The notes beneath the pieces were generated by a model, which did no database searches, was not told where the DNA came from, and worked only from the letters and a program-made list of their open reading frames with translations. Below are positions 22,509-47,467 of a DNA stretch of 64,000 nucleotides, in pieces. The translations under genes and the position numbers were made by a program. The DNA is from Candidatus Accumulibacter cognatus (lineage in GTDB: Bacteria > Pseudomonadota > Gammaproteobacteria > Burkholderiales > Rhodocyclaceae): NCBI GenBank assembly GCA_013414765.1, contig CP058708.1, positions 1,793,553 through 1,857,552 on the forward strand. Reading direction: 5' to 3'. Positions within the stretch are counted from its first letter, which is position 1. Each line of letters opens with the position of its first letter.

Positions 22509-24935
22509 CAGACAACCTGATCTCGGCGCCATGACGTTTGCACGAGTGGCATCACGAATCCGCAGTAGTTCATACGGTTAGCGCGCTGACAAAGCACTGG
22601 CGCGGGTTTATGGCGAGGGGCGTGGCAGATATTGCGAAGATACCGAAAATTGGCGATAGTCCGGTTTTTTGGCCGGCGCCACGCCGATCTTGCGGGAGAA
22701 TCGGATGCCCCAACTGCTGTTGCCGATCTTTCCGGATGCCGTGACGCCGATCAAGGACCTGCTGTCTGTCGGGAAGCAGGACGGGCGAGTCGTGTATTTC
22801 CACGGCGTCCTGCCGGTGTTTAGTCATGGGGAAGAGGATTTGGCGACCTTCCGGATGATTACGGCGCAGTTTATCGCGCAGGGTCATCTTCGGGTGGTGG
22901 ACGTGTCGCGCGCCTTCGGGGTGCCGGCGTTGAGTGTCAAGCGAGCGTTGAAGCGCTATCGGCAAGAGGGGCCGAAAGGGTTCTACGTTCCGCCGCGGCG
23001 CCGGGGTCCGGCGGTGCTGACGGCAGAGGTGTTGCAGCAGGCGCAGGCCCTGTTCGACGGCGGACAGACGGTCCCGAGCGTTGCGACAGAACTGGGGATC
23101 AAGAGCGACACCCTGTCGAAGGCGGTGCGTGCCGGACGGCTGCATGTTCCGGTGGGGAAAGGGGTCTGCGCGGTCGTCTCGAGCACCAAGAGCGAGCGGA
23201 GCGCACTCGACAGCGCGGCCCCGATGGGGGTTGGGGCGAGCAACGTGGTTGCCCGGGTGGCGGCCAGCGTGGGCGGGCTGAATGCCGTTGCTCCGCAGTT
23301 CCAGGCGGCCGTTGATGTACCGCGTGGCGGGGTGCTGTTCGCGCTGCCTGCCTTATTGGCGGTCGGATTGCTCGACGGGTCGGAGGGTCTTCCGCTGCCA
23401 GCGGGTTACTACGGGATCGACAGTCTGTTGATGTTGATTGCCTTCATGGCCCTGGCGCGACTGGAATCGGTCGAGTCTCTGCGCTCGTGTGCGCCAGGCG
23501 AGTGGGGCAAGTTACTGGGTCTCGATCGGATTCCCGAAGTGCGCACCCTGCGCGAGAAGATAGGGCTCCTGAGCCAGGGCGATCATGCCGAGAAATGGAG
23601 TGCCGACCTGTGTCGGCGCTGGATGGCGGCGGCGCCGGAACAAGCGGGCATCCTCTACGTCGACGCGCATGTGCGGGTGTATTACGGCGAGCAGACCCAA
23701 TTGCCGCGCCACTACATCGCGCGGCAGCGGCTGTGCCAGCGTGCGACCGCCGATTACTGGGTCAACGCGATCGACGGGCAGCCCTTCTTCCGGGTCACGC
23801 AATCCGTCGACCCGGGCCTGATCAAGGTTCTTGAAGGCGAGATCCTGCCTCGGCTGGAACGGGACATCCCGGGCCAGCCGAGCGCCGAAGCGCTCGCGGC
23901 CGACCCGCTGCGCCATCGCTTCACCCTGGTCTTCGATCGCGAAGGCTATAGCCCAGAGTTGTTCAAGCGTCTGAAGGCGCGTCGCGTTGCCTGCCTCTCC
24001 TATCGCAAGTACGCCGGCGACGATTGGTCGCCCGAGGAATTCGTCGACGCCACGATCGAACTTCGCCGTGGCCAGCAGGTACGCATGCGACTCGCCGAAC
24101 GGGGAACGCTGCTCGGCGGCGTGGTGTGGGTACGCGAGATACGCAAGGTCTGTGACACCGGTCGCCAGGTCGCCCTGATCAGCACGGATTACCAATCTGG
24201 CATAGGGCGCCTGGCGGCCACCCTGTTCGCCAGGTGGTCTCAGGAAAACTTCTTCAAGTATGCGCGTGAACACTTTGCCCTGGACCGCCTGGTGGATTAT
24301 CAGATGGAAGAAATTCCTGATACCGCACGCGTTGTCAACCCAGCTCGCCGAACCCTCGACGGCCAGGTTCGCGCGCTGACCAGCAAGCTCAGCCGCAGGC
24401 TCGCCCAATTCGGCGCGCTTAACCTCAACGAGACGATTGAACCAGCGAAAGTCGAGGCCTTTGTCGCGAAAAAAGCCGCTGCCCACGACGAGATCGAACA
24501 TCTGCAGGACGAACTCAAGGCCCTGAAGGAACAACGTAAAGAAACCCCCTCCCATCTCGCCCTCAAGGATTTGCCGGAAGAACAGCAGTTCCGCCGGCTG
24601 AGCACCCACAGCAAGCAGCTACTCGACACGCTCAAGATGATTGCCTATCGCGCGGAAACGGCCATGGCCAACGTCCTGGCACCGCTTCTCTCGCGCCCGG
24701 ACGAGGCACGCAGCTTGCTGCGCGCGATCTACACGACCGAAGCGGACTTGCTGCCCGATCCTAACGCCGGCACCCTGACCGTACGCCTCCACCACATGGC
24801 CAATGGCGTGTCGGACCGCGCCGTCCGCAAACTCTGTGACGAGTTGAACTCTACCAAGACGCTCTTCCCACGCTCCAACCTCCGCCTGATTCTGCAACTC
24901 GGTACGTCGCAAAATCCGTGAGATCAGGTTGTCTG
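22509..24935 (+). mobile_element. Insertion sequence, copy 1 (in hsdM remnant)
   Basis: A 2427-bp element bounded by perfect 16-bp inverted repeats, CAGACAACCTGATCTC at 22509-22524 and its complement at 24920-24935. It is flanked by the 5-bp direct target duplication AACCA (22504-22508 and 24936-24940). It carries one transposase gene. It appears identical to the copy at 39557-41983, so the transposition was recent. I cannot assign it to a named IS family from the sequence alone. Confidence 0.97.
22705..24921 (+). CDS. DDE transposase of the 2.4-kb IS (copy 1)
   Basis: This large transposase (738 residues from the ATG at 22705, which follows GGGAGA) has an N-terminal helix-turn-helix region (VDVSRAFGVPALSVKRAL near residue 68) and a second HTH-like part (SVATELGIKSDTLSKAVR). 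The catalytic core shows an RNase H-like order: first Asp in ILYVDAHVRVYYGE, second in LVFDREGYSPELF, Glu in RWSQENFFKYAREH. A coiled-coil (EIEHLQDELKALKEQRKE) lies near the C-terminus. The stop is inside the element, 14 bp before its end. An upstream TTG at 22669 is possible but lacks a ribosome site. Confidence 0.9.
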   Translation: MPQLLLPIFPDAVTPIKDLLSVGKQDGRVVYFHGVLPVFSHGEEDLATFRMITAQFIAQGHLRVVDVSRAFGVPALSVKRALKRYRQEGPKGFYVPPRRRGPAVLTAEVLQQAQALFDGGQTVPSVATELGIKSDTLSKAVRAGRLHVPVGKGVCAVVSSTKSERSALDSAAPMGVGASNVVARVAASVGGLNAVAPQFQAAVDVPRGGVLFALPALLAVGLLDGSEGLPLPAGYYGIDSLLMLIAFMALARLESVESLRSCAPGEWGKLLGLDRIPEVRTLREKIGLLSQGDHAEKWSADLCRRWMAAAPEQAGILYVDAHVRVYYGEQTQLPRHYIARQRLCQRATADYWVNAIDGQPFFRVTQSVDPGLIKVLEGEILPRLERDIPGQPSAEALAADPLRHRFTLVFDREGYSPELFKRLKARRVACLSYRKYAGDDWSPEEFVDATIELRRGQQVRMRLAERGTLLGGVVWVREIRKVCDTGRQVALISTDYQSGIGRLAATLFARWSQENFFKYAREHFALDRLVDYQMEEIPDTARVVNPARRTLDGQVRALTSKLSRRLAQFGALNLNETIEPAKVEAFVAKKAAAHDEIEHLQDELKALKEQRKETPSHLALKDLPEEQQFRRLSTHSKQLLDTLKMIAYRAETAMANVLAPLLSRPDEARSLLRAIYTTEADLLPDPNAGTLTVRLHHMANGVSDRAVRKLCDELNSTKTLFPRSNLRLILQLGTSQNP

Positions 24936-36475: not shown

Positions 36476-37024
36476 TCACCCGGAGCCTTCCTCCGGCCCG
36501 AAGCAAAGCGCCCGGTCGCAGCACTCGGCGCAGTGTGGCGCCTTGCAGATCGGCACGCCGGCACGCTCGCAAAGCTGGCGGTAGAAGAACTTCTTCCATT
36601 TCATGTCGCCGACGTTCTTCGCCGCCAGCGCGGGGAAGTGCTCGCGCAGCAAGTCCGATAGCGCCGTACGGCTGGGCAGCCCCATGTCCTGCCAGAGGTG
36701 GTCTGAGCCCATTGCCGCCGTCTCAATGGCATGACACAGGCAGATGCCCGACTCGTCGGGCAGCGCCAGGTGTTCGAGCAACAGATCGAGGAGATCGGCA
36801 AACTCGTCGCCGTCATCGTCGGGAGTCCACGCTCCAGGGTTCGCCGCGAACCTTGTGCCGGGGCAAAGGGTCGCAAGGACTGCTTGCAGCCGTTCTTCCG
36901 GGAAGCCCCGGATCAACGGCTGGCGGCCCGTCTTCAGCGCCTGGCCAATGACGCCACGCAAGGCGAGGGCACGCAGGTCTTCGCCGAGTCGCACGCTCGG
37001 CAGCTTGTCGGTCGGGTTGAGCAT
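36476..37024 (-). CDS. nifQ: NifQ, Mo-Fe-S protein for FeMo-co molybdenum insertion
   Basis: NifQ supplies molybdenum to NifEN during FeMo-co synthesis. The 182-residue product carries the C-terminal cysteine motif [16 protein letters not shown] (C-x5-C-x2-C-x5-C spacing) that holds its Mo-Fe-S cluster, and the [20 protein letters not shown] and [16 protein letters not shown] blocks. The ATG at 37024 follows GGGAG. It is divergent from nifE and has its own -24/-12 promoter, sharing one activator site. It is first in the run nifQ - mop remnant - modABC, a coherent molybdenum unit. Confidence 0.94.
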
Positions 37025-37057
37025 ACAGGGCTCCCAGGTGGCGGACGAGGGACCTCA

Positions 37058-37073
37058 AGCAGAATCCACGCCA
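37058..37073 (-). promoter_or_regulatory. sigma54 promoter for nifQ
   Basis: On the minus strand TGGCGTGGATTCTGCT has GG and GC exactly 10 bases apart. The start of transcription should be near 37047, about 23 nt before the nifQ ATG. The shared NifA site at 37124-37139 is about 50 bp upstream. Confidence 0.65.
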
Positions 37074-37123
37074 GGCTGTCTTGACCGGCTGGTGGTGCTC
37101 CTCCGCTTCGTTCGACGCGACAA

Positions 37124-37139
37124 TGTCGCGAACCCGACA
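37124..37139. promoter_or_regulatory. NifA activator site shared by nifQ and nifE
   Basis: TGTCGCGAACCCGACA is a perfect TGT-N10-ACA. It lies about 45 bp upstream of the nifE -24 element and about 50 bp upstream of the nifQ one, roughly midway, so a single dimer site could serve both divergent promoters. Confidence 0.8.
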
Positions 37140-37183
37140 AAACCCAGCCCAGGCACAAGGATGCGGAATCAGGCGCTTAGCGT

Positions 37184-37198
37184 TGGCACGGCAATTGC
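37184..37198 (+). promoter_or_regulatory. sigma54 promoter for nifEN operon
   Basis: TGGCACGGCAATTGC is a perfect match to the TGGCACG-N4-TTGC consensus. Transcription should start near 37210, leaving an 18-nt leader before the nifE ATG that contains only a weak purine-rich ribosome site (AGAGGA). Confidence 0.88.
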
Positions 37199-37227
37199 GG
37201 CATGCCAGGGAACAGAGGACTGACGCC

Positions 37228-38652
37228 ATGAAGACAGCCGAAATTGCCCAACTGCTGAACGAGCCCGCCTGTGCTCACAACAGGAACGAGAAATCCGGTT
37301 GCGCGCGCACCAAACCGGGCGCGACGGCGGGCGGCTGCTCGTTCGACGGTGCGCAGATCGCGCTGCTGCCGATTGCCGACGTCGCTCACATCGTGCACGG
37401 GCCGATCGCCTGCGCCGGCGCCTCCTGGGACAACCGTGGCGCGCGTTCGTCGGGACCGACGCTCTATCGCATCGGCATGACCACCGACCTCACCGAGCAG
37501 GACGTGATCATGGGGCGTGGCGAGAAGCGGCTGTTCCTGGCCATCAAGCAGGCGATCGACGACTACGCGCCGAAGGCCGTCTTCCTCTACTCGACCTGTG
37601 TTCCGGCGCTGATCGGCGACGATCTCGAGGCGGTGGCCAGAGCGGCCAGCGCGCGCTGGGGGGTGCCGGTGGTGCCGGTCGACTGCGCCGGCTTCTACGG
37701 CACCAAGAACCTGGGCAACCGCATTGCCGGGGAGGCCATGTTCAAGTATGTGATCGGCACCCGCGAACCGGCACCGATCGCCGCATCCACGCAACGGCCG
37801 GGCATCCGGGTCCACGACGTGAACCTCATCGGCGAATACAACATCGCTGGCGAGTTCTGGTACCTCGCACCGTTGTTCGACGAACTGGGCCTGCGCATTC
37901 TGTGCACGCTCTCGGGCGACGCACGCTTCCACGAGGTGCAGACCATGCACCGCGCGCGGGCGTCGATGGTGGTTTGCGCCAAGGCGCTGCTCAATGTCGC
38001 GCGCAAACTTGAAAGCAACTTTGGCGTGCCCTTTTTCGAAGGCAGTTTCTACGGCATCACCGACACCTCGCAGGCCTTCCGTGACTTCGCCCGCCTGCTT
38101 GGCGACGACGATCTCGCGGCGCGCACCGAGGCAATGATCGCGCGCGAGGAGGGCGCCGTTCGCGCCGCCCTCGAACCCTGGCGAGCGCGGCTGGCCGGCA
38201 AGCGGGTGCTGCTCTACACCGGTGGCGTCAAGAGCTGGTCGGTGGTGTCGGCGCTCCAGGATCTGGGCATGACGGTGGTGGCCACCGGCACCAACAAGTC
38301 GACCGAGGAGGACAAGGCGCGCATCCGCGAGATCATGGGCGAGGCGACGAAGATGATCACTGACGGCAGCCCGAAGGCGCTGCTGCAGGCCTACCAGGAC
38401 TACCAGGCGGACATTCTGATCGCTGGCGGGCGCAACCTGTACACTGCTCTGAAGGCCCGCATTCCGTTTCTCGACATCAACCAGGAAAGGGAATTCGGCT
38501 ACGCCGGTTACGGCGGCATGCTTGAGCTGGTGCGCCAGCTTGCGCTGACGCTGGAATCGCCGGTGTGGAAGAAAGTGCGGGCGCCAGCGCCATGGCATGT
38601 CGCGCCGGCCGCAGGCAAGGCGCCAGCGCCTGCGGGAGAAACCCATGCCTGA
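37228..38652 (+). CDS. nifE: NifE, FeMo-cofactor scaffold subunit
   Basis: NifE forms with NifN the heterotetramer on which NifB-co matures to FeMo-co. The 474-residue product resembles NifD: cysteine ligand regions [24 protein letters not shown] and [13 protein letters not shown], the block [20 protein letters not shown], and the late [20 protein letters not shown] and [16 protein letters not shown]. Length is normal. The start is set by the promoter and AGAGGA. The stop overlaps nifN by 8 bp. Confidence 0.96.
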
Positions 38653-39556
38653 AATTCTCAAGCGCGCCAAGCCGCTGGCCGTGAATCCGCTCAAGGCCAG
38701 TCAGCCGATCGGCGCCGCCCTGGCTTTCCTCGGCCTGCGGCGGGCGATTCCGATGCTGCACGGATCGCAGGGTTGTACGGCTTTTGGCAAGGTGTTCCTG
38801 GTACGCCATTTCCGCGAGCCGATCCCGCTGCAGACGACGGCCATGGATCAGGTGTCGAGCATCATGAGCGCCGACGAGAACGTCATCGAGGGCTTGCGCG
38901 TGCTCTGCGAGAAGAGTCGGCCGGAGATCATCGGCCTGCCGACCACCGGGCTCTCCGAGACCCAGGGCTGCGACATGCCGCGCCTGGTGCGCGAGTTCCG
39001 CAGCCGATATCCGGAGTTCGCGAGCACCGCTGTGGTGCCGGTAAGCACGCCGGACTACAGCGGTTGCCTTGAGTCCGGCTTTGCCCTCGCCGTCGAAGCG
39101 ATCATCGACACGCTGCTCCCCGCCGGCCTCGGGCCGGCACCGGCTGCGGTCCGCAGCCGGCAGGTCAATGTCCTCGCGTCGTCGATGCTGACGCCGGGAG
39201 ACATTGAAGCGATCAAGGAATGGATCGAGGCCTTCGGTCTACAGCCGGTGGTGCTGCCCGACCTCGGCGATTCACTCGACGGGCATCTGATCGACCAGGA
39301 GAGCACGCCGCTGACCCTGGGGGGGACGCCGAAAGCCGCCATCGCCGCGCTCGGAGAGGCGACCGCCACGATCGTCATTGGCCGTTCGTTGTACAAGGCG
39401 GCCGATCTGCTGCGGGCGCGTATTGGCGTGCCGGATTTCCGTTTCGATCATCTGCTCGGCCTCGACGCCTGTGATGCCTTCATCCTCACGCTGGCCGAAA
39501 TCTCGGGGCAGCCGGTACCTGCCGCCATCGAGCGCCAACGGGCGCAACTGCAGGAT
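38645..39556 (+). pseudogene. nifN: nifN 5' part, interrupted by insertion sequence
   Basis: NifN is the partner of NifE. These 304 codons are a normal NifN N-terminus: [78 protein letters not shown] and [15 protein letters not shown]. After codon 304 (ending AQLQD) the 2427-bp insertion sequence begins and adds only Gln-Thr-Thr before a stop. About a third of the protein, including the end of the last Rossmann-like domain, is cut off. The rest is at 41989-42483. Removing the element and one AGGAT repeat restores an open 468-residue frame. Confidence 0.95.
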
Positions 39557-41983
39557 CAGACAACCTGATCTCGGCGCCATGACGTTTGCACGAGTGGCAT
39601 CACGAATCCGCAGTAGTTCATACGGTTAGCGCGCTGACAAAGCACTGGCGCGGGTTTATGGCGAGGGGCGTGGCAGATATTGCGAAGATACCGAAAATTG
39701 GCGATAGTCCGGTTTTTTGGCCGGCGCCACGCCGATCTTGCGGGAGAATCGGATGCCCCAACTGCTGTTGCCGATCTTTCCGGATGCCGTGACGCCGATC
39801 AAGGACCTGCTGTCTGTCGGGAAGCAGGACGGGCGAGTCGTGTATTTCCACGGCGTCCTGCCGGTGTTTAGTCATGGGGAAGAGGATTTGGCGACCTTCC
39901 GGATGATTACGGCGCAGTTTATCGCGCAGGGTCATCTTCGGGTGGTGGACGTGTCGCGCGCCTTCGGGGTGCCGGCGTTGAGTGTCAAGCGAGCGTTGAA
40001 GCGCTATCGGCAAGAGGGGCCGAAAGGGTTCTACGTTCCGCCGCGGCGCCGGGGTCCGGCGGTGCTGACGGCAGAGGTGTTGCAGCAGGCGCAGGCCCTG
40101 TTCGACGGCGGACAGACGGTCCCGAGCGTTGCGACAGAACTGGGGATCAAGAGCGACACCCTGTCGAAGGCGGTGCGTGCCGGACGGCTGCATGTTCCGG
40201 TGGGGAAAGGGGTCTGCGCGGTCGTCTCGAGCACCAAGAGCGAGCGGAGCGCACTCGACAGCGCGGCCCCGATGGGGGTTGGGGCGAGCAACGTGGTTGC
40301 CCGGGTGGCGGCCAGCGTGGGCGGGCTGAATGCCGTTGCTCCGCAGTTCCAGGCGGCCGTTGATGTACCGCGTGGCGGGGTGCTGTTCGCGCTGCCTGCC
40401 TTATTGGCGGTCGGATTGCTCGACGGGTCGGAGGGTCTTCCGCTGCCAGCGGGTTACTACGGGATCGACAGTCTGTTGATGTTGATTGCCTTCATGGCCC
40501 TGGCGCGACTGGAATCGGTCGAGTCTCTGCGCTCGTGTGCGCCAGGCGAGTGGGGCAAGTTACTGGGTCTCGATCGGATTCCCGAAGTGCGCACCCTGCG
40601 CGAGAAGATAGGGCTCCTGAGCCAGGGCGATCATGCCGAGAAATGGAGTGCCGACCTGTGTCGGCGCTGGATGGCGGCGGCGCCGGAACAAGCGGGCATC
40701 CTCTACGTCGACGCGCATGTGCGGGTGTATTACGGCGAGCAGACCCAATTGCCGCGCCACTACATCGCGCGGCAGCGGCTGTGCCAGCGTGCGACCGCCG
40801 ATTACTGGGTCAACGCGATCGACGGGCAGCCCTTCTTCCGGGTCACGCAATCCGTCGACCCGGGCCTGATCAAGGTTCTTGAAGGCGAGATCCTGCCTCG
40901 GCTGGAACGGGACATCCCGGGCCAGCCGAGCGCCGAAGCGCTCGCGGCCGACCCGCTGCGCCATCGCTTCACCCTGGTCTTCGATCGCGAAGGCTATAGC
41001 CCAGAGTTGTTCAAGCGTCTGAAGGCGCGTCGCGTTGCCTGCCTCTCCTATCGCAAGTACGCCGGCGACGATTGGTCGCCCGAGGAATTCGTCGACGCCA
41101 CGATCGAACTTCGCCGTGGCCAGCAGGTACGCATGCGACTCGCCGAACGGGGAACGCTGCTCGGCGGCGTGGTGTGGGTACGCGAGATACGCAAGGTCTG
41201 TGACACCGGTCGCCAGGTCGCCCTGATCAGCACGGATTACCAATCTGGCATAGGGCGCCTGGCGGCCACCCTGTTCGCCAGGTGGTCTCAGGAAAACTTC
41301 TTCAAGTATGCGCGTGAACACTTTGCCCTGGACCGCCTGGTGGATTATCAGATGGAAGAAATTCCTGATACCGCACGCGTTGTCAACCCAGCTCGCCGAA
41401 CCCTCGACGGCCAGGTTCGCGCGCTGACCAGCAAGCTCAGCCGCAGGCTCGCCCAATTCGGCGCGCTTAACCTCAACGAGACGATTGAACCAGCGAAAGT
41501 CGAGGCCTTTGTCGCGAAAAAAGCCGCTGCCCACGACGAGATCGAACATCTGCAGGACGAACTCAAGGCCCTGAAGGAACAACGTAAAGAAACCCCCTCC
41601 CATCTCGCCCTCAAGGATTTGCCGGAAGAACAGCAGTTCCGCCGGCTGAGCACCCACAGCAAGCAGCTACTCGACACGCTCAAGATGATTGCCTATCGCG
41701 CGGAAACGGCCATGGCCAACGTCCTGGCACCGCTTCTCTCGCGCCCGGACGAGGCACGCAGCTTGCTGCGCGCGATCTACACGACCGAAGCGGACTTGCT
41801 GCCCGATCCTAACGCCGGCACCCTGACCGTACGCCTCCACCACATGGCCAATGGCGTGTCGGACCGCGCCGTCCGCAAACTCTGTGACGAGTTGAACTCT
41901 ACCAAGACGCTCTTCCCACGCTCCAACCTCCGCCTGATTCTGCAACTCGGTACGTCGCAAAATCCGTGAGATCAGGTTGTCTG
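39557..41983 (+). mobile_element. Insertion sequence, copy 2 (in nifN)
   Basis: This copy has the same 2427-bp length and 16-bp inverted repeats as copy 1 (39557-39572 and 41968-41983). The 5-bp target duplication is AGGAT (39552-39556 and 41984-41988), different from AACCA at copy 1, as expected for independent insertions. It lies in the same orientation as nifN. Confidence 0.97.
39753..41969 (+). CDS. DDE transposase of the 2.4-kb IS (copy 2)
   Basis: The translated protein is identical to the transposase at 22705-24921 (738 residues; Asp in ILYVDAHVRVYYGE, Asp in LVFDREGYSPELF, Glu in RWSQENFFKYAREH). Identity over the full length and of the flanking non-coding ends points to very recent movement. 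Both copies appear able to encode a full transposase. Confidence 0.9.
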   Translation: MPQLLLPIFPDAVTPIKDLLSVGKQDGRVVYFHGVLPVFSHGEEDLATFRMITAQFIAQGHLRVVDVSRAFGVPALSVKRALKRYRQEGPKGFYVPPRRRGPAVLTAEVLQQAQALFDGGQTVPSVATELGIKSDTLSKAVRAGRLHVPVGKGVCAVVSSTKSERSALDSAAPMGVGASNVVARVAASVGGLNAVAPQFQAAVDVPRGGVLFALPALLAVGLLDGSEGLPLPAGYYGIDSLLMLIAFMALARLESVESLRSCAPGEWGKLLGLDRIPEVRTLREKIGLLSQGDHAEKWSADLCRRWMAAAPEQAGILYVDAHVRVYYGEQTQLPRHYIARQRLCQRATADYWVNAIDGQPFFRVTQSVDPGLIKVLEGEILPRLERDIPGQPSAEALAADPLRHRFTLVFDREGYSPELFKRLKARRVACLSYRKYAGDDWSPEEFVDATIELRRGQQVRMRLAERGTLLGGVVWVREIRKVCDTGRQVALISTDYQSGIGRLAATLFARWSQENFFKYAREHFALDRLVDYQMEEIPDTARVVNPARRTLDGQVRALTSKLSRRLAQFGALNLNETIEPAKVEAFVAKKAAAHDEIEHLQDELKALKEQRKETPSHLALKDLPEEQQFRRLSTHSKQLLDTLKMIAYRAETAMANVLAPLLSRPDEARSLLRAIYTTEADLLPDPNAGTLTVRLHHMANGVSDRAVRKLCDELNSTKTLFPRSNLRLILQLGTSQNP

Positions 41984-41988
41984 AGGAT

Positions 41989-42483
41989 GCTATGGTAGAC
42001 ACCCATTTCATGACCGGCTTCCTGCGCATCGGCATTGCTGCCGACCCCGACCTGTTGGTGGCGCTCGGCCAGTTCCTCACCGCTGTCGGCGGCGAAATCG
42101 TCGCCGCGGTGGCGTCTACGCGTGCAGAGGTGCTCGCCGATCTACCGTCCGCCTGTGTGCGCATCGGCGATCTCGAGGACCTGGAACGTGCGGCACTGGC
42201 GCAACGCGCCCAGCTCATCGTCGCCAACTCGCACGCCGTGCCCAGCGCGCAACGCCTGCAAGTGCCGTTGCTGCGCGCCGGTTTTCCCCAGTACGACTGG
42301 GTCGGCGGCTATGCGCGGACCTGGGTCGGCTATCGCGGCGCGCGTCAGGCTTTGTTCGATATCGCCAATCTTTTCCTCGGGAGCCATCATGACATCCCTG
42401 TCCATAGATCGATCTACCGGGTCGGCGACGACGTCGACGCACCGGCGCGGGCGCCGTCTGGCGCTGGCCTGGCCCACCACTAA
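41989..42483 (+). pseudogene. nifN: nifN 3' part
   Basis: The frame continues nifN directly after the target duplication: MVDTHFMTGFLRIGIAADPD, LLVALGQFLTAVGGEIVAAV, LPSACVRIGDLEDLERAAL, LIVANSHAVPSAQRL and LLRAGFPQYDWVGGYARTWV, the normal C-terminal part of NifN. The last 30 residues overlap the start of nifX. No ribosome site or start gives this part as an independent product, so NifN should be absent. Confidence 0.92.
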
Positions 42484-42916
42484 CGAGGCGCCGGGCATGC
42501 TCAGGGTGGCTTTCGCCAGCAACGACCGCAGCACGGTCAATCAGCACTTCGGCGCCGCCGAAGGTTTTGCGGTCTATGCCCTGGACGGTGAGCGCGCGCA
42601 ACTGGTCGAAATCGTCGAGTTTCCGCCGGCCGCCATGGAGGCCAACGAAGGCCGACTGCCGGCGCGGGTTGCGGCGCTGGCGGGTTGTGCCGCCGTCTAT
42701 TGCCTGGCGGCCGGCGCCTCGGCGGTGAAGCAGTTGCTGGCCGTCGGCGTGCAGCCGATCCGGCTCGACGATGAGGCAGCGATCGACGTGCTCTTGCAGC
42801 AGCTCAGCCGCGCGATCTGCGCTGGCGGCACCGCCTGGGTTGACAAGGCAATTCGCCGGCAGGAGGGCGACAGCGCCCGCTTCGATCGCATGCTTGACGA
42901 AGGCTGGGACGAATGA
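42389..42916 (+). CDS. nifX: NifX, FeMo-co precursor carrier
   Basis: NifX binds NifB-co and the VK-cluster during transfer to NifEN. The product is 175 residues from the ATG at 42389 (GGGAG upstream) with the core LRVAFASNDRSTVNQHFGAA, FAVYALDGERAQLVEIVEF and YCLAAGASAVKQLLAVGVQP. The first 36 residues overlap nifN in another frame. An alternative ATG at 42497, 14 bp after the nifN stop with GAGG upstream, would give 139 residues and may be the real start. It is downstream of the insertion in nifN, so its expression may be reduced. The stop overlaps the next gene by 4 bp. Confidence 0.92.
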   Translation: MTSLSIDRSTGSATTSTHRRGRRLALAWPTTNEAPGMLRVAFASNDRSTVNQHFGAAEGFAVYALDGERAQLVEIVEFPPAAMEANEGRLPARVAALAGCAAVYCLAAGASAVKQLLAVGVQPIRLDDEAAIDVLLQQLSRAICAGGTAWVDKAIRRQEGDSARFDRMLDEGWDE

Positions 42917-43350
42917 CGGCGGGTCCTCTGCAAGCTCGTGGCCGGGTGGTCGGCGTGCATGGCGACGTGGCCGAGGTACGCATCGACGCCGCATCGGGCT
43001 GCCATGCTTGCCGGGCACGCGCCGTCTGCGGCCACGGAAGTGAACAGTCGCTCCGCGTCACGGCGTTGGCGGACATGGCGGTCGGGGACCCCGTGCTGCT
43101 CGAACTGGATCAGGCGAATTTTGCCCTCGCAATGGCCATTGGCTATCTGCTGCCGGTCGTGACGCTGCTGCTCGGCGCGGCACTGTTTTCCTTCGCTGGC
43201 GACGCTGCCGCCGCCCTCGGTGCCGCCCTTGGTCTGACCACCGGACTGTTCCTGGTCCGTCTGCTACATCGCCGGCTGCTCGCCGGCAATCTGCAGCCGA
43301 CCGTCTCTGTCACTTGTTCATCCCAGTCATTTCCTGGAGAAAGCCCATGA
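42913..43350 (+). CDS. RseC/MucC-like protein in nif operon
   Basis: The 145-residue product belongs to the RseC/MucC (SoxR-reducing system) family: an N-terminal soluble part with the cysteine cluster GCHACRARAVCGHG, a small beta domain, and two membrane helices (about 75-98 and 102-122). In E. coli RseC works with the Rsx (Rnf-like) complex to keep SoxR reduced. Here it is translationally coupled to nifX (ATGA) and to the DUF269 gene (ATGA). I infer that it assists the Rnf complex or its electron flow during nitrogen fixation. Confidence 0.85.
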   Translation: MTAGPLQARGRVVGVHGDVAEVRIDAASGCHACRARAVCGHGSEQSLRVTALADMAVGDPVLLELDQANFALAMAIGYLLPVVTLLLGAALFSFAGDAAAALGAALGLTTGLFLVRLLHRRLLAGNLQPTVSVTCSSQSFPGESP

Positions 43351-43832
43351 CTGCAGGTCTTGCCCCGGCATCCGCGATCGAGCCCGACGACTCGCCAATC
43401 TATGCCACCGATTTCATCAGGGAAATGCTGCGTCAGACGCGGGCGCTCGACAGCTATGGCCAGTGGGACGGCAAGCCGGTGCCGACGATCCTCGCTGGCT
43501 ACGTGCTGAGCAAGGAGCAGAAGCGGGCGCTGCCGACCATCGGCGATCCCGACGAGTTGACACTGGCCCGTGTCAAGGCTTTCCACAACGCGATTGCGGT
43601 GCTGATCGAGAAGGAATGCGGGCAGATGGCGGTGCCCTTCGTGCAGATCACCCACGAAGGCTTCGGGCGTGCGCTGATTACTGTCGGCAAGCTGGTGGTG
43701 ATGGATCGGACGCTGCGCGATGTGCATCGCTTCGGCTTCGAGTCGCTGTCGAAGATGAAGAGCGAAGCCGACAAACACCTTGCCGTAGCGCTCGGCGTCA
43801 TCGGCCGATTCCCGGAAGTGGCGGGCATGTGA
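43347..43832 (+). CDS. NifX-associated protein (DUF269 family)
   Basis: A 161-residue DUF269 protein, nearly always found beside nifX in proteobacterial nif clusters; its exact function is not settled. Family stretches are SPIYATDFIREMLRQTRALD, YGQWDGKPVPTIL, and KECGQMAVPFVQITHEGFGR followed by VVMDRTLRDVHRFGFES. It looks intact. It overlaps the rseC-like gene by 4 bp and is 10 bp from the next gene. Confidence 0.93.
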   Translation: MTAGLAPASAIEPDDSPIYATDFIREMLRQTRALDSYGQWDGKPVPTILAGYVLSKEQKRALPTIGDPDELTLARVKAFHNAIAVLIEKECGQMAVPFVQITHEGFGRALITVGKLVVMDRTLRDVHRFGFESLSKMKSEADKHLAVALGVIGRFPEVAGM

Positions 43833-43842
43833 GGGCAGAAAG

Positions 43843-44052
43843 ATGAGCGAAGACGAAATCAGGGAGCTCGATCGGCAGGTGAAAAAGCTGAAGCGCCTGG
43901 CCAGCGAGCAGGCTGCGAGGCTCCACGATCTGGTCGAGGACAGATTGCCTGCCGGCTGGCAGGAGCTTCCGGAAATTTCACAGGCAACCCTCACGGCGTG
44001 CAAAGCGTGGGCAGAAGCCAACTCCCGCCTGCAGGCGGCACAGAAAGGATAA
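43843..44052 (+). CDS. CCE_0567-family small protein of nif cluster
   Basis: A 69-residue helical hairpin protein that matches the CCE_0567 family: EIRELDRQVKKLKRLASEQA with RLHDLVEDRLPAGWQELPEI and LTACKAWAEANSRL. These proteins accompany DUF269 and fdxB in nif operons and probably bind a metal or a partner; function unknown. GAAAGATG provides a reasonable start at 43843. Confidence 0.9.
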   Translation: MSEDEIRELDRQVKKLKRLASEQAARLHDLVEDRLPAGWQELPEISQATLTACKAWAEANSRLQAAQKG

Positions 44053-44056
44053 GCGC

Positions 44057-44353
44057 ATGGGTACCATCACTGGACGCACCCGCGGCGGGGACGAATGGGT
44101 CCCGCAATTTGTCAGTTTTCTCGATCCGAAGAAGTGCATTGGCTGCGGCCGCTGCTACAAGGTGTGTCCACGCAATGTTCTCGACCTGGTCGAACGGAGC
44201 GAGCAGTTGCTGGCCGACGCCGACGAGGATGGCGACGACGATGACGAAATGATGGTGATGACCATTGCCAACGGCGCCGACTGCATCGGCTGCGGCGCCT
44301 GCGGTCGTGTTTGCCCGAAGGACTGCTACACCTACGAGGTGGCTGCGGGGTGA
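44057..44353 (+). CDS. fdxB: FdxB, nif-specific ferredoxin III
   Basis: A 98-residue ferredoxin with two 4Fe-4S motifs, CIGCGRCYKVCPRNVL and CIGCGACGRVCPKDCY, separated by a long acidic insert (ADADEDGDDDDEMM) that is typical of nif ferredoxin III. It probably carries electrons in nitrogenase or cofactor assembly. It is 4 bp after the CCE_0567-family gene and ends the nifEN transcript; a new promoter follows. Confidence 0.93.
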   Translation: MGTITGRTRGGDEWVPQFVSFLDPKKCIGCGRCYKVCPRNVLDLVERSEQLLADADEDGDDDDEMMVMTIANGADCIGCGACGRVCPKDCYTYEVAAG

Positions 44354-44408
44354 ATGGCGTGAGTTCTGCGCGTCTGCCGTTGTCTTTCGACCGTGTTTCC
44401 ATTCCGAG

Positions 44409-44424
44409 TGTCGCGTTTGCGACA
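44409..44424. promoter_or_regulatory. NifA activator site upstream of iscA-nifUS
   Basis: TGTCGCGTTTGCGACA is a perfect palindromic TGT-N10-ACA, 69 bp upstream of the -24/-12 promoter at 44493-44507. Confidence 0.82.
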
Positions 44425-44492
44425 TCCATTCGAGCACGGGGGAAATGGCGAAAATATATGAAAATCATGGTGTTGAACCTCATCGGCAAGCC

Positions 44493-44507
44493 TGGTACGA
44501 AGCTTGC
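44493..44507 (+). promoter_or_regulatory. sigma54 promoter for iscA-nifU-nifS
   Basis: TGGTACGAAGCTTGC has GG and GC 10 bases apart, with the usual TTGC at -12. Transcription should start near 44519, 34 nt before the iscA-like ATG, and an AAGGAGAG ribosome site lies between. The element makes this an independent NifA-controlled unit. Confidence 0.82.
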
Positions 44508-44552
44508 GGTGATGAACTCAGGGAACCCACCTCATCTCAAGGAGAGCAACGC

Positions 44553-44879
44553 ATGATCCATCTGACCCCCGCCGCCGTGAAGGCAATCAGCCGTTTCGTC
44601 AAGGCCACCGAGACTCCGGTTGCCGGTCTGCGCATCTTTGTCTCCGGTGGCGGTTGCGCCGGCCTGCAATACGGATTGCGTCTCGAACAGGACAAGGGCG
44701 CGGACGATCTGGAATTCGACGTCGGCGCCGCTGCACGCTTGTTGGTCGACCCGTTGAGCAGTTCAATGCTCGATGGCCTGACGGTCGACTTTGTCGACAG
44801 CCTCACGCAGACCGGCTTCAAGTTCAACAATCCGAACGTCTCCGGCGCCTGCGCCTGCGGCCAGTCGTTCGCGGGCTGA
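44553..44879 (+). CDS. IscA/HesB-type Fe-S carrier of nif cluster
   Basis: The 108-residue A-type carrier protein has the three conserved cysteines, in [13 protein letters not shown] and in the C-terminal [10 protein letters not shown]. It likely receives clusters from NifU and hands them to nif apoproteins (often named nifIscA). Strong AAGGAGAG precedes the ATG at 44553. It is first in an operon with nifU (10 bp gap) and nifS. Confidence 0.93.
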
Positions 44880-44889
44880 GGAGATCGCC

Positions 44890-45774
44890 ATGTGGGACTA
44901 TTCCGAAAAGGTGCGCGAACACTTCTTCAATCCGAGGAATTCCGGGCCGCTCGAGAACGCCAACGGCGTCGGCGACTTCGGTTCGATCAAGTGTGGCGAC
45001 GCGCTGCGCCTGATGCTCAGGGTCAACCCGGAAACCGAGGTCATCGACGATGCGCGCTTTCAGACCTTTGGTTGCGGCTCGGCGATCGCCTCGTCGTCGG
45101 CGCTGACCGAGATCATCAAGGGCAAGACGCTGGACGAAGCGCTACAGGTCAGCAACCAGGACATCGCCGACTATCTCGACGGACTGCCGCCGGAAAAGAT
45201 GCACTGTTCGGTCATGGGGCGCGAGGCACTGCAGGCGGCGGTCGCCAACTATCGCGGCGAGACCTGGAAGGATGATCACGAGGAAGGAGAACTGGTCTGC
45301 AAGTGTTTCGCCATCGACGCCGTGATGATCGAGGACACGGTGCGCGCCAATAGCCTGCGGACCATCGAGGAGGTCGCCAACTACACCAAGGCCGGTGGTG
45401 GCTGTTCGGCGTGTCACGAGAAGATCGAGGACATCCTGATCGCCGTCAACGGCCGGCTCTACGCCAACGAAGCAAAGCCGACCAAAGCGCGTCCGGCAAG
45501 CAGCGACGGGGTGAACAAGCCAAAGCTGACCAACTACCAGCGCATCCGCAAGATCGAGGAGATCTTGGAGGCGATCCGTCCTTCGCTGCAGCGTGACCAC
45601 GGTGACGTCACCCTGGTCGAGGTCGACGGCAAGAAAGTCTACGTCGAACTCACCGGCGCCTGCCGCGGATGCTCGATGGAGTCCGCCACCCTAGGAGGCG
45701 TGCAGCAGAAACTCATCGAAGCCCTGGGCGAACTGGTGCAGGTGCTGCCGGTCGCAGCGCTGGTCCGCGCGTAA
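44890..45774 (+). CDS. nifU: NifU, Fe-S cluster scaffold
   Basis: NifU assembles Fe-S clusters for nitrogenase. The 294-residue product has the full three-domain design: IscU-like N-terminus with [14 protein letters not shown] and [12 protein letters not shown], a central 2Fe-2S BFD-like domain ([12 protein letters not shown] with [13 protein letters not shown]), and a C-terminal Nfu domain with [10 protein letters not shown]. Length is normal. It is 22 bp upstream of nifS. Confidence 0.96.
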
Positions 45775-45796
45775 CCGTCAACCGACTGGAGAAGCC

Positions 45797-47005
45797 ATGC
45801 AACCGATCTATATGGATAACAACGCCACGACGGCCTGCGATCCCGCCGTCGTGGCGGCGATGTTGCCCTACTTTACCGAACAGTTCGGCAATGCGTCTTC
45901 GATTCACAGCTTTGGTTCGCAGGTCGGTCAAGCGATCAAGCAGGCGCGCATGCAGGTCCAGTCTCTCCTCGGAGCGGCCCACGACAGCGAAATCGTGTTC
46001 AATTCCTGCGGCACCGAGTCCGATGCGACCGCCATCCTCTCGGCGCTGAAAGCCCATCCGGAACGGCGGACGGTGATCACCACGGTCGTCGAACATCCTG
46101 CGATCCTCAACCTGTGCGCCTACCTCGAGAAGGAGGATTACGTCGTGCATCGCCTGCGCGTTGACCGCAGGGGGCGGCTCGACCTCGACGAATACCGGTC
46201 GCTGCTCAACGAGCGCGTGGCGATCGTTTCTGCGATGTGGGCGAACAATGAAACGGGAACGCTCTTCCCGGTCGAGGAAATGGCCGAGATGGCGCACGCG
46301 AAAGGCATCCTTTTCCACACCGATGCCGTGCAGGCCGTCGGCAAGGTCGCCATTGACCTGAAAAGCACGCAGATCGACATGCTCTCGTTGTCCGGTCACA
46401 AGCTGCATGCGCCGAAAGGCATCGGTGTGTTGTATGTGCGTCGCAATACCCGCTTCCGGCCACTCCTGCGCGGCGGCCACCAGGAGCGTGGGCGCCGCGC
46501 GGGCACCGAGAACTCGGCGTCGATCGTTGGCCTCGGTGTCGCCTGCGAGCTCGCCGAGCAGCACCTGCTGACCGAGAACACGACGGTCAAGCGCCTGCGC
46601 GACCGCCTCGAACGGGGGATTCTCGGCAGCGTCAGAAATGCCTTCGTCAATGGCGACACGCTCTACCGTCTGCCGAATACGGCGAGCATCGCTTTCGAGT
46701 ACGTGGAAGGAGAGGGCATTCTGTTGCTCCTCAACCAGCTCGGCATTGCCGCGTCTTCCGGCTCGGCCTGCACCTCGGGTTCGCTGGAGCCGTCGCATGT
46801 CATGCGCGCGATGGCCATCCCTTACACTGCGGCACACGGGACGATTCGCTTCTCGCTGTCGCGCTACAACACCGAAGAGGAAGTGGACCGCGTCATCGCC
46901 GCCGTGCCCCCAGTGATCGCGAAATTGAGGAAACTCTCTCCCTACTGGAGCGGTGAAGGTCCACTCGCGAATCCCGAGCAAGCTTTCCAGCCGGAGTACG
47001 CCTGA
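45797..47005 (+). CDS. nifS: NifS, cysteine desulfurase
   Basis: NifS is the PLP enzyme that supplies sulfur to NifU. The 402-residue product has MDNNATTACDPAVVAAMLPY, the PLP lysine in LSLSGHKLHAPKGIGVLYV and the catalytic cysteine in SSGSACTSGSLEPSHVM. Length and motifs are normal. It ends the iscA-nifUS operon; nifV is not downstream here but in the minus-strand operon. Confidence 0.96.
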   Translation: MQPIYMDNNATTACDPAVVAAMLPYFTEQFGNASSIHSFGSQVGQAIKQARMQVQSLLGAAHDSEIVFNSCGTESDATAILSALKAHPERRTVITTVVEHPAILNLCAYLEKEDYVVHRLRVDRRGRLDLDEYRSLLNERVAIVSAMWANNETGTLFPVEEMAEMAHAKGILFHTDAVQAVGKVAIDLKSTQIDMLSLSGHKLHAPKGIGVLYVRRNTRFRPLLRGGHQERGRRAGTENSASIVGLGVACELAEQHLLTENTTVKRLRDRLERGILGSVRNAFVNGDTLYRLPNTASIAFEYVEGEGILLLLNQLGIAASSGSACTSGSLEPSHVMRAMAIPYTAAHGTIRFSLSRYNTEEEVDRVIAAVPPVIAKLRKLSPYWSGEGPLANPEQAFQPEYA

Positions 47006-47467
47006 CCGGATCGAGGAATGCGTCATCGATGTGGCGGTAAACTACCTCCACCTGCTGCGGACCCTGCATCGTGCGTAATTCGATACCGGGGCGGAGGAGC
47101 GCTACACCCGCATCGCCGAATCCGGCAGGACGATCCCGTGTTGCTCGAGCTGGACCAGACGTAAAACCGGAATCTATCCCGGCTTACGTGGGTAGCCAGC
47201 AGGAACACCTCGCCGCCTCGTTGATTGAATTCGCCTTGCAGGCCGCCTGAGAACAGGTTCAAAATGGTGGTCGACCGCTGCCGGGTTGAAAGCGGTCGGG
47301 CACGAGGCGGAGACATTCCTTTGCCGGGAATGAAGATTTGTTCTTCACATGAGCGCAGGCCAGGGCCCAACTTGTTGAGCTTCCTGGATTCCGGCTGACG
47401 CCGGAATGTAGGCTTCGAAATGAATCCGCGCTTCCCTGGAATATGGACAGTGGACAGGATAAGAATC
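47006..47467. other. Spacer after nifS; one hairpin repeat, no gene
   Basis: About 460 bp between nifS and a Mth938-like gene. Short fragments such as VAVNYLHLLRTL on the plus strand look like eroded coding sequence but are not identifiable. A perfect hairpin repeat lies at 47388-47407. Confidence 0.5.
47388..47407. repeat. REP-like inverted repeat
   Basis: ATTCCGGC-TGAC-GCCGGAAT forms an 8-bp perfect stem with a 4-base loop. Hairpins of this sort (GGATTCCGGCnnnnGCCGGAAT) are dispersed intergenic repeats in many betaproteobacteria. It has no following T-run, so a terminator role is doubtful. Confidence 0.55.

Follow-up and report, generated by a model that had tools for sequence, protein, structure and literature searches.

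The nif locus and the break in nifN

The window, that is, the whole stretch of 64,000 nucleotides of Candidatus Accumulibacter cognatus DNA that was analysed, carries a nif cluster in which nifN is found in two pieces. The features around the break are given below in window coordinates.

37184..37199, + strand: sigma-54-like -24/-12 site upstream of nifE (TGGCACGGCAATTGCG, one mismatch)
37228..38652, + strand: nifE, intact, 474 aa (TIGR01283, 677 bits, cut-off 505)
38645..39556, + strand: nifN 5' part, codons 1-304 (TIGR01285, 413.8 bits, cut-off 326.8)
39552..39556, no strand: target duplication AGGAT, left copy, read from the sequence
39557..41983, + strand: insertion sequence, 2427 bp, 16-bp perfect inverted repeats
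39753..41969, + strand: transposase, 738 aa from this ATG (Pfam PF21804 Transposase_29, E 1.1e-180)
41982..41994, + strand: right junction with TGAGG, five bases and an in-frame ATG (41992), a possible start of a C-terminal NifN fragment
41984..41988, no strand: target duplication AGGAT, right copy, read from the sequence
41989..42483, + strand: nifN 3' part, codons 305-468 and stop (TIGR01285, 154.8 bits)
42497..42916, + strand: nifX-like gene (TIGR02663, 88.4 bits, below the cut-off of 112)
42913..43350, + strand: RseC-like protein (NF008115, 42.4 bits, well below the cut-off of 184)
43314..43832, + strand: NifX-associated protein, termed DUF269 in the original prediction, start codon uncertain (TIGR02935, 184.8 bits, cut-off 132)
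44057..44353, + strand: nif-specific ferredoxin III (TIGR02936, 122.4 bits, cut-off 80.6)
44553..44879, + strand: iscA-like gene, ATG at 44553 (TIGR00049, 107.2 bits, cut-off 58.8)
44890..45774, + strand: nifU (TIGR02000, 473.9 bits, cut-off 273.3)
45797..47005, + strand: nifS (TIGR03402, 624.5 bits, cut-off 530.8)

A base-for-base check of the sequence confirmed that the insertion sequence at 39557-41983 splits nifN after codon 304 and is flanked by an AGGAT duplication, as had been predicted. The upstream frame continues for three codons into the element (QTT) before a TGA stop, the C-terminal 164 residues of NifN are severed from it, and one continuous full-length NifN reading frame is absent. 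Removal of the element in silico, with the flanks joined through a single AGGAT, gave 1407 bp encoding the anticipated 468 residues with one terminal stop, and this rejoined NifN aligned over its full length with the nifN of relatives.

Both pieces have NifN (TIGR01285) as their best NCBIfam match, the 5' piece spanning positions 2-302 of this equivalog model and the 3' piece positions 300-430; the 5' piece passes the equivalog cut-off and the 3' piece alone falls below it. Likewise, against the solved NifN 3pdi_B the 5' piece aligned with residues 1-302 and the 3' piece, from M306, with residues 304-447. The sigma-54-like site upstream of nifE ends 28 bases ahead of the nifE ATG and is a pattern match only, scored against the sigma-54 consensus.

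The insertion sequence and its copies

The ends of the element (CAGACAACCTGATCTC) form perfect 16-bp terminal inverted repeats; an inverted-repeat search gives 17 nt, since the symmetry extends by one base pair into the flanks. The longest transposase frame begins at TTG 39717 and would encode 750 aa; PF21804 covers residues 175-732 of the 738-residue form, and a helix-turn-helix match (HTH_28) was seen near its N terminus in the Pfam scan. None of the five other frames of the element gave a Pfam match at E 0.01, so that no passenger gene was detected in them, and no recombinase besides the transposase was present among the six frames scanned.

The genome assembly is a single contig of 5,169,514 bases, listed as 100% complete, and contains seven full copies of the element, all 2427 bp long and with zero differences between them, along with two short fragments that are 85% identical. 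Perfect 5-bp duplications, each copy having its own, flank 7/7 copies, so chance is not an issue for the insertion. Matches to the element were found in 17 of the 28 genomes in our genus set (the host, G000, included). Among the 27 other genomes, the best full-length copy is 91% identical and lies in G001, and some short fragments are more similar (one in G023, 51 bases long, is 96% identical). A plasmid search with the transposase returned one record, with 26% identity over 35% of the query. Since the seven copies are identical and full-length copies in the other genus genomes reach at most 91%, the burst is recent; judged by these comparisons, the copies have spread within the host lineage very recently.

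Inverted repeats, one transposase, a target duplication of fixed length and several identical copies are shared by this element with bacterial insertion sequences in general, and the sole difference from ordinary gene inactivation by such elements is that the target is the single nifN. What lies at this locus is a real, recent and inactivating insertion of a known kind in nifN. The nif genes of cyanobacteria harbour elements that undergo programmed excision. These likewise are mobile elements that interrupt a nif gene, but the element in nifN differs from them in having a transposase only, a 5-bp duplication and seven copies. A programmed nif excision element was considered and rejected, given that no site-specific recombinase is found among the six scanned frames.

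The site in relatives and the age of the break

When the 5' part of nifN was used as query, 329 relatives were identified; the best 80 were retained. The first nine of these are 82-93% identical, and comprise eight Accumulibacter records and one labelled only Pseudomonadota, which points to an Accumulibacter species as the host. The alignment across residues 290-320 is unbroken in 80/80 of these best 80 of 329 relatives, and 79/80 are without a stop anywhere in the nifN alignment. The exception, L084, is a Rhodocyclaceae MAG with one stop inside the alignment, which is either real or a sequencing error. In the genus set, the 12 other genomes that pass the NifN cut-off, which overlap in part with the 80 relatives, also all align straight across the site without a stop. 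Where a DNA alignment with relatives covers the site, a single AGGAC or AGGAT is present in them, apart from a few exceptions (L069, L074 and L093).

We made crude three-point estimates of dN/dS on the host branch from counted substitutions, using G011 and G018 as sisters. The values obtained (G011 and G018, respectively) were 0.12 and 0.15 for nifN, 0.06 and 0.12 for nifE, 0.02 and 0.05 for nifD, and 0.06 and 0.05 for nifK; when nifN was divided at the break, G011 gave 0.17 for codons 1-304 and 0.06 for codons 305-468. By this measure nifN on the host branch still looks constrained. The break is taken to be young because nifN dN/dS is still low and neither of the two pieces contains a frameshift or a further stop. 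The insertion had been called recent in the original prediction, and the identity of the seven copies, the 91% reached at most by full-length copies in other genus genomes and the low nifN dN/dS all agree with this.

Nitrogenase genes in the genome and the genus

Nitrogen fixation had been predicted to fail unless another nifN existed in the genome. Profile searches of the genome with TIGR01285 and PF00148 found no second nifN or vnfN, and nifHDK is present, about 90 kb away, as open frames of 302, 497 and 522 residues. The PF00148 search returned five stretches, namely nifD, nifK, nifE and the two nifN pieces, and no vnf or anf genes. A third stretch matching the NifN model (256 bits, below cut-off) was considered as a second nifN and proved to be nifK. 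Scores over the cut-offs of their own models were obtained for nifD (870.6 bits), nifK (871.6 bits), nifH (466.3 bits) and nifB (an open frame, 631 bits). The available part of PMC3464626 gives nifHDK together with nifENB as a six-gene rule for diazotrophs; in this genome nifH, nifD, nifK, nifB and nifE are open and over their cut-offs, and nifN is broken.

Across the genus, 15/28 genomes gave a match to the NifN model, owing either to nifN itself or to its relative nifK, and the NifE model returned this same set of 15. With nifD and nifK outside the host judged by weaker matches to the NifN and NifE models, all six core genes are unbroken by these searches in 6 of the 15 nif-bearing genomes, and one more may have them. 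G010, G011, G013, G020, G025 and G026 have nifH, nifB, nifE and nifN over cut-off together with nifD and nifK matches. G018 is without nifH only, its nifD match starting at base 113 of a contig, and G008 has all six, but its nifE alignment ends at residue 435 of 474 and its nifN alignment begins at 14. Compared with the host, NifD and NifK show 92-98% identity in G006, G008, G010, G011, G013, G018, G020 and G025, and 78-86% in G001, G002 and G026.

Several other genomes hold the set in part, and draft quality limits what can be read from several of them. In G001, nifH, nifD, nifK and nifB are unbroken, but nifE and nifN are each in two pieces, nifE with a gap of ~120 codons and nifN with a stop. 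The decayed cluster (L125, 4130-8219) has nifE, nifN and nifS that lack stretches and a nifU that changes frame, and the unbroken nifHDK lies ~28 kb from it on the same contig. In G006, nifE is split over two contigs (L128 and L129) and nifN changes frame near codon 420, both of which could be assembly or sequencing faults; each nifE piece continues into other sequence, a possible insertion, rearrangement or assembly fault. G002 (88% completeness, about 820 contigs) has nifD, nifK and part of nifB; neither nifE nor nifN was detected, and no nifH passes the cut-off. G005, G015 and G021 (completeness 100%, 72% and 90%) have nifE and nifN, but neither nifD nor nifK is matched and no nifH passes the cut-off; among the three, nifB is over cut-off in G015 only. 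The nifE and nifN on L131 (G005) and L132 (G021) look intact, the reverse of the situation in G001.

On these sequence comparisons, the nifN break fits a wider pattern of piecemeal nif loss in the genus. That nitrogen fixation has been lost repeatedly in Ca. Accumulibacter has already been inferred, according to the available part of PMC12766714, from which MAGs hold the operon; the loss described here is likewise one of nif function in this genus, and differs in that one inactivating event is seen directly. The part of PMC8407102 at hand reports NifU as differentially expressed in two Accumulibacter strains, and neither this text nor the corresponding part of PMC11131965 has anything on nifN.

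Consequence for nitrogen fixation

We propose, with a probability of about 0.9, that an insertion sequence transposed recently into nifN, that NifEN and FeMo-co were lost as a result, and that this is one event in the repeated loss of nif genes in the genus. The element, recently multiplied in this Accumulibacter lineage, would have left the 5-bp duplication on entering nifN. NifEN is the scaffold on which NifB-co becomes FeMo-co. From this established biochemistry, a cell without NifN would have no NifEN scaffold, NifB-co would not be matured to FeMo-co, and NifDK would remain without its cofactor. FeMo-cofactor synthesis should fail because nifD, nifK, nifE and the split nifN are the only nitrogenase-component genes found, and the strain has very probably lost nitrogen fixation not long ago. 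The break was probably tolerated since combined nitrogen is plentiful in wastewater, and the comparative evidence suggests that it is one of several piecemeal losses.

This is an ordinary kind of gene loss in a freshly caught case, and it shows a single step of nif loss at base resolution in a genus that is key to wastewater treatment. It also indicates that finding nifH, or most of the nif genes, in a genome does not mean nitrogen-fixing ability. Our searches of the open-licence literature turned up no report of an insertion sequence in nifN, and the available part of PMC3306737 reports no interrupted nifN.

As a possible counterpoint, the genome may be a metagenome consensus, and some cells could carry the empty site. 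The element might occupy nifN in part of the cells only, or be precisely lost at a useful rate. The identity of the copies, implying very recent movement, speaks for such a mixed population, but a single allele was assembled, and precise loss is opposed both by the lack of a recombinase for programmed excision, the transposase being the only Pfam-matched frame of six, and by the six further copies scattered in the genome. We consider a mixed population unlikely; it is compatible with, and does not exclude, transposition into nifN as the best explanation for the filled allele.

It is also conceivable, though very improbable, that in some Accumulibacter species the molybdenum nitrogenase remains functional although NifEN is not intact, through scaffold-free cofactor maturation on canonical NifDK or through a two-piece NifN restarted at the right end of the element. 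The nifN broken here by an insertion sequence and the decayed nifEN of G001 beside intact nifHDK and nifB offer two natural tests of a NifEN-free nitrogenase, and nitrogenase activity in this strain, if true, would challenge the need for NifEN with canonical NifDK.

Scaffold-free maturation would mean that the break is real and yet nitrogenase works, apo-NifDK serving as its own scaffold as in Roseiflexus, for which in vitro formation of FeMo-co by NifH, NifB and NifDK in the absence of NifEN is described (PMC11573651, available part). The same text ties this case to a distinct NifDK lineage and says that Roseiflexus has yet to be shown to grow diazotrophically. Thermophiles without NifN, of which at least one, Methanocaldococcus FS406-22, fixes nitrogen, belong to distinct NifDK lineages, according to the part of PMC3464626 available, which also states that NifDK with NifB-co instead of FeMo-co does not reduce N2, though such NifDK may retain some acetylene reduction. 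In eight relatives that have nifE and nifN as well, NifD shares 94-98% identity with the NifD of our strain, and the latter therefore does not represent a distinct NifDK lineage. The retention of intact nifHDK and nifB in the sister species G001, with branch dN/dS of 0.06-0.19 (four genes, three outgroups), could be read in favour of scaffold-free maturation. However, the G001 relics give 0.15-0.17 for nifE and 0.33-0.45 for nifN, as against 0.16-0.18 (nifE intact) and 0.33-0.51 on the G026 branch. Relic values this low, like those of the G026 genes, make the loss in G001 too recent for the nifHDK constraint to be informative, and we rejected nifHDK retention in G001 as proof of NifEN-free fixation. 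Overall, scaffold-free nitrogenase in this strain appears extremely improbable.

A split NifN, in which residues 1-304 with QTT and a fragment from ATG 41992 are both made and assemble, would find a possible start at the right junction, where TGAGG lies five bases before this ATG and the ATG itself follows 22 bases after the transposase stop. A putative C-terminal fragment of 163 residues could be translated because TGAGG precedes the in-frame ATG. By comparison with NifK, the break presumably falls ahead of the last NifN domain, which would also favour assembly of the pieces. An AlphaFold model of the C-terminal fragment alone, made from a shallow alignment of 18 rows, was poor, with a mean pLDDT of 53.7 and a pTM of 0.39. 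We give a functional two-piece NifN scarcely any chance. An assembly error joining two element copies inside nifN, which seven identical 2.4-kb repeats might invite, is practically negligible because both flanks share the 5-bp duplication AGGAT, just as each of the six other copies has a 5-bp duplication of its own, and the flanking sequences together make up a single nifN, preceded by nifE and followed by the nifX-like gene.

Downstream genes and other insertion sites

The original prediction also held that polarity should reduce expression of the genes downstream of nifN and that iscA-nifUS keeps its own promoter. Transposase and nifN read in the same direction, towards nifX, and the transposase gene ends 14 bp before the end of the element. 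Terminator-like sites between 37000 and 47100 number 6, against a shuffled mean of 6.6, that is, chance level, and one only lies on the + strand inside the element (39851-39863). Given the co-directional transposase and these terminator counts, transcription may run on through the element into nifX and beyond, and polarity is not established. A scan for sigma-70-type promoters found none in 37000-47100 (shuffled mean 1.3). The strict sigma-54 pattern had no site in the window, and a looser one had five between 32000 and 48000, including one within the transposase gene, all being pattern matches only. A separate promoter for iscA-nifUS, resting on one weak sigma-54-like site (44493-44508, two mismatches), is likewise not established.

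A second identical copy of the element lies in the window at 22509-24935, with the duplication AACCA. The frame directly after it encodes the C-terminal part of an N-6 DNA methylase (PF02384), and the methylase gene looks cut. Elsewhere in the genome, a copy at L010 1507-3933 is positioned between a response-regulator/DUF3369/GGDEF part and an EAL part, and a gene for a cyclic-di-GMP enzyme appears broken by it. A copy at L013 1501-3927 adjoins, on its right flank, a phage-integrase-like frame (PF22022).
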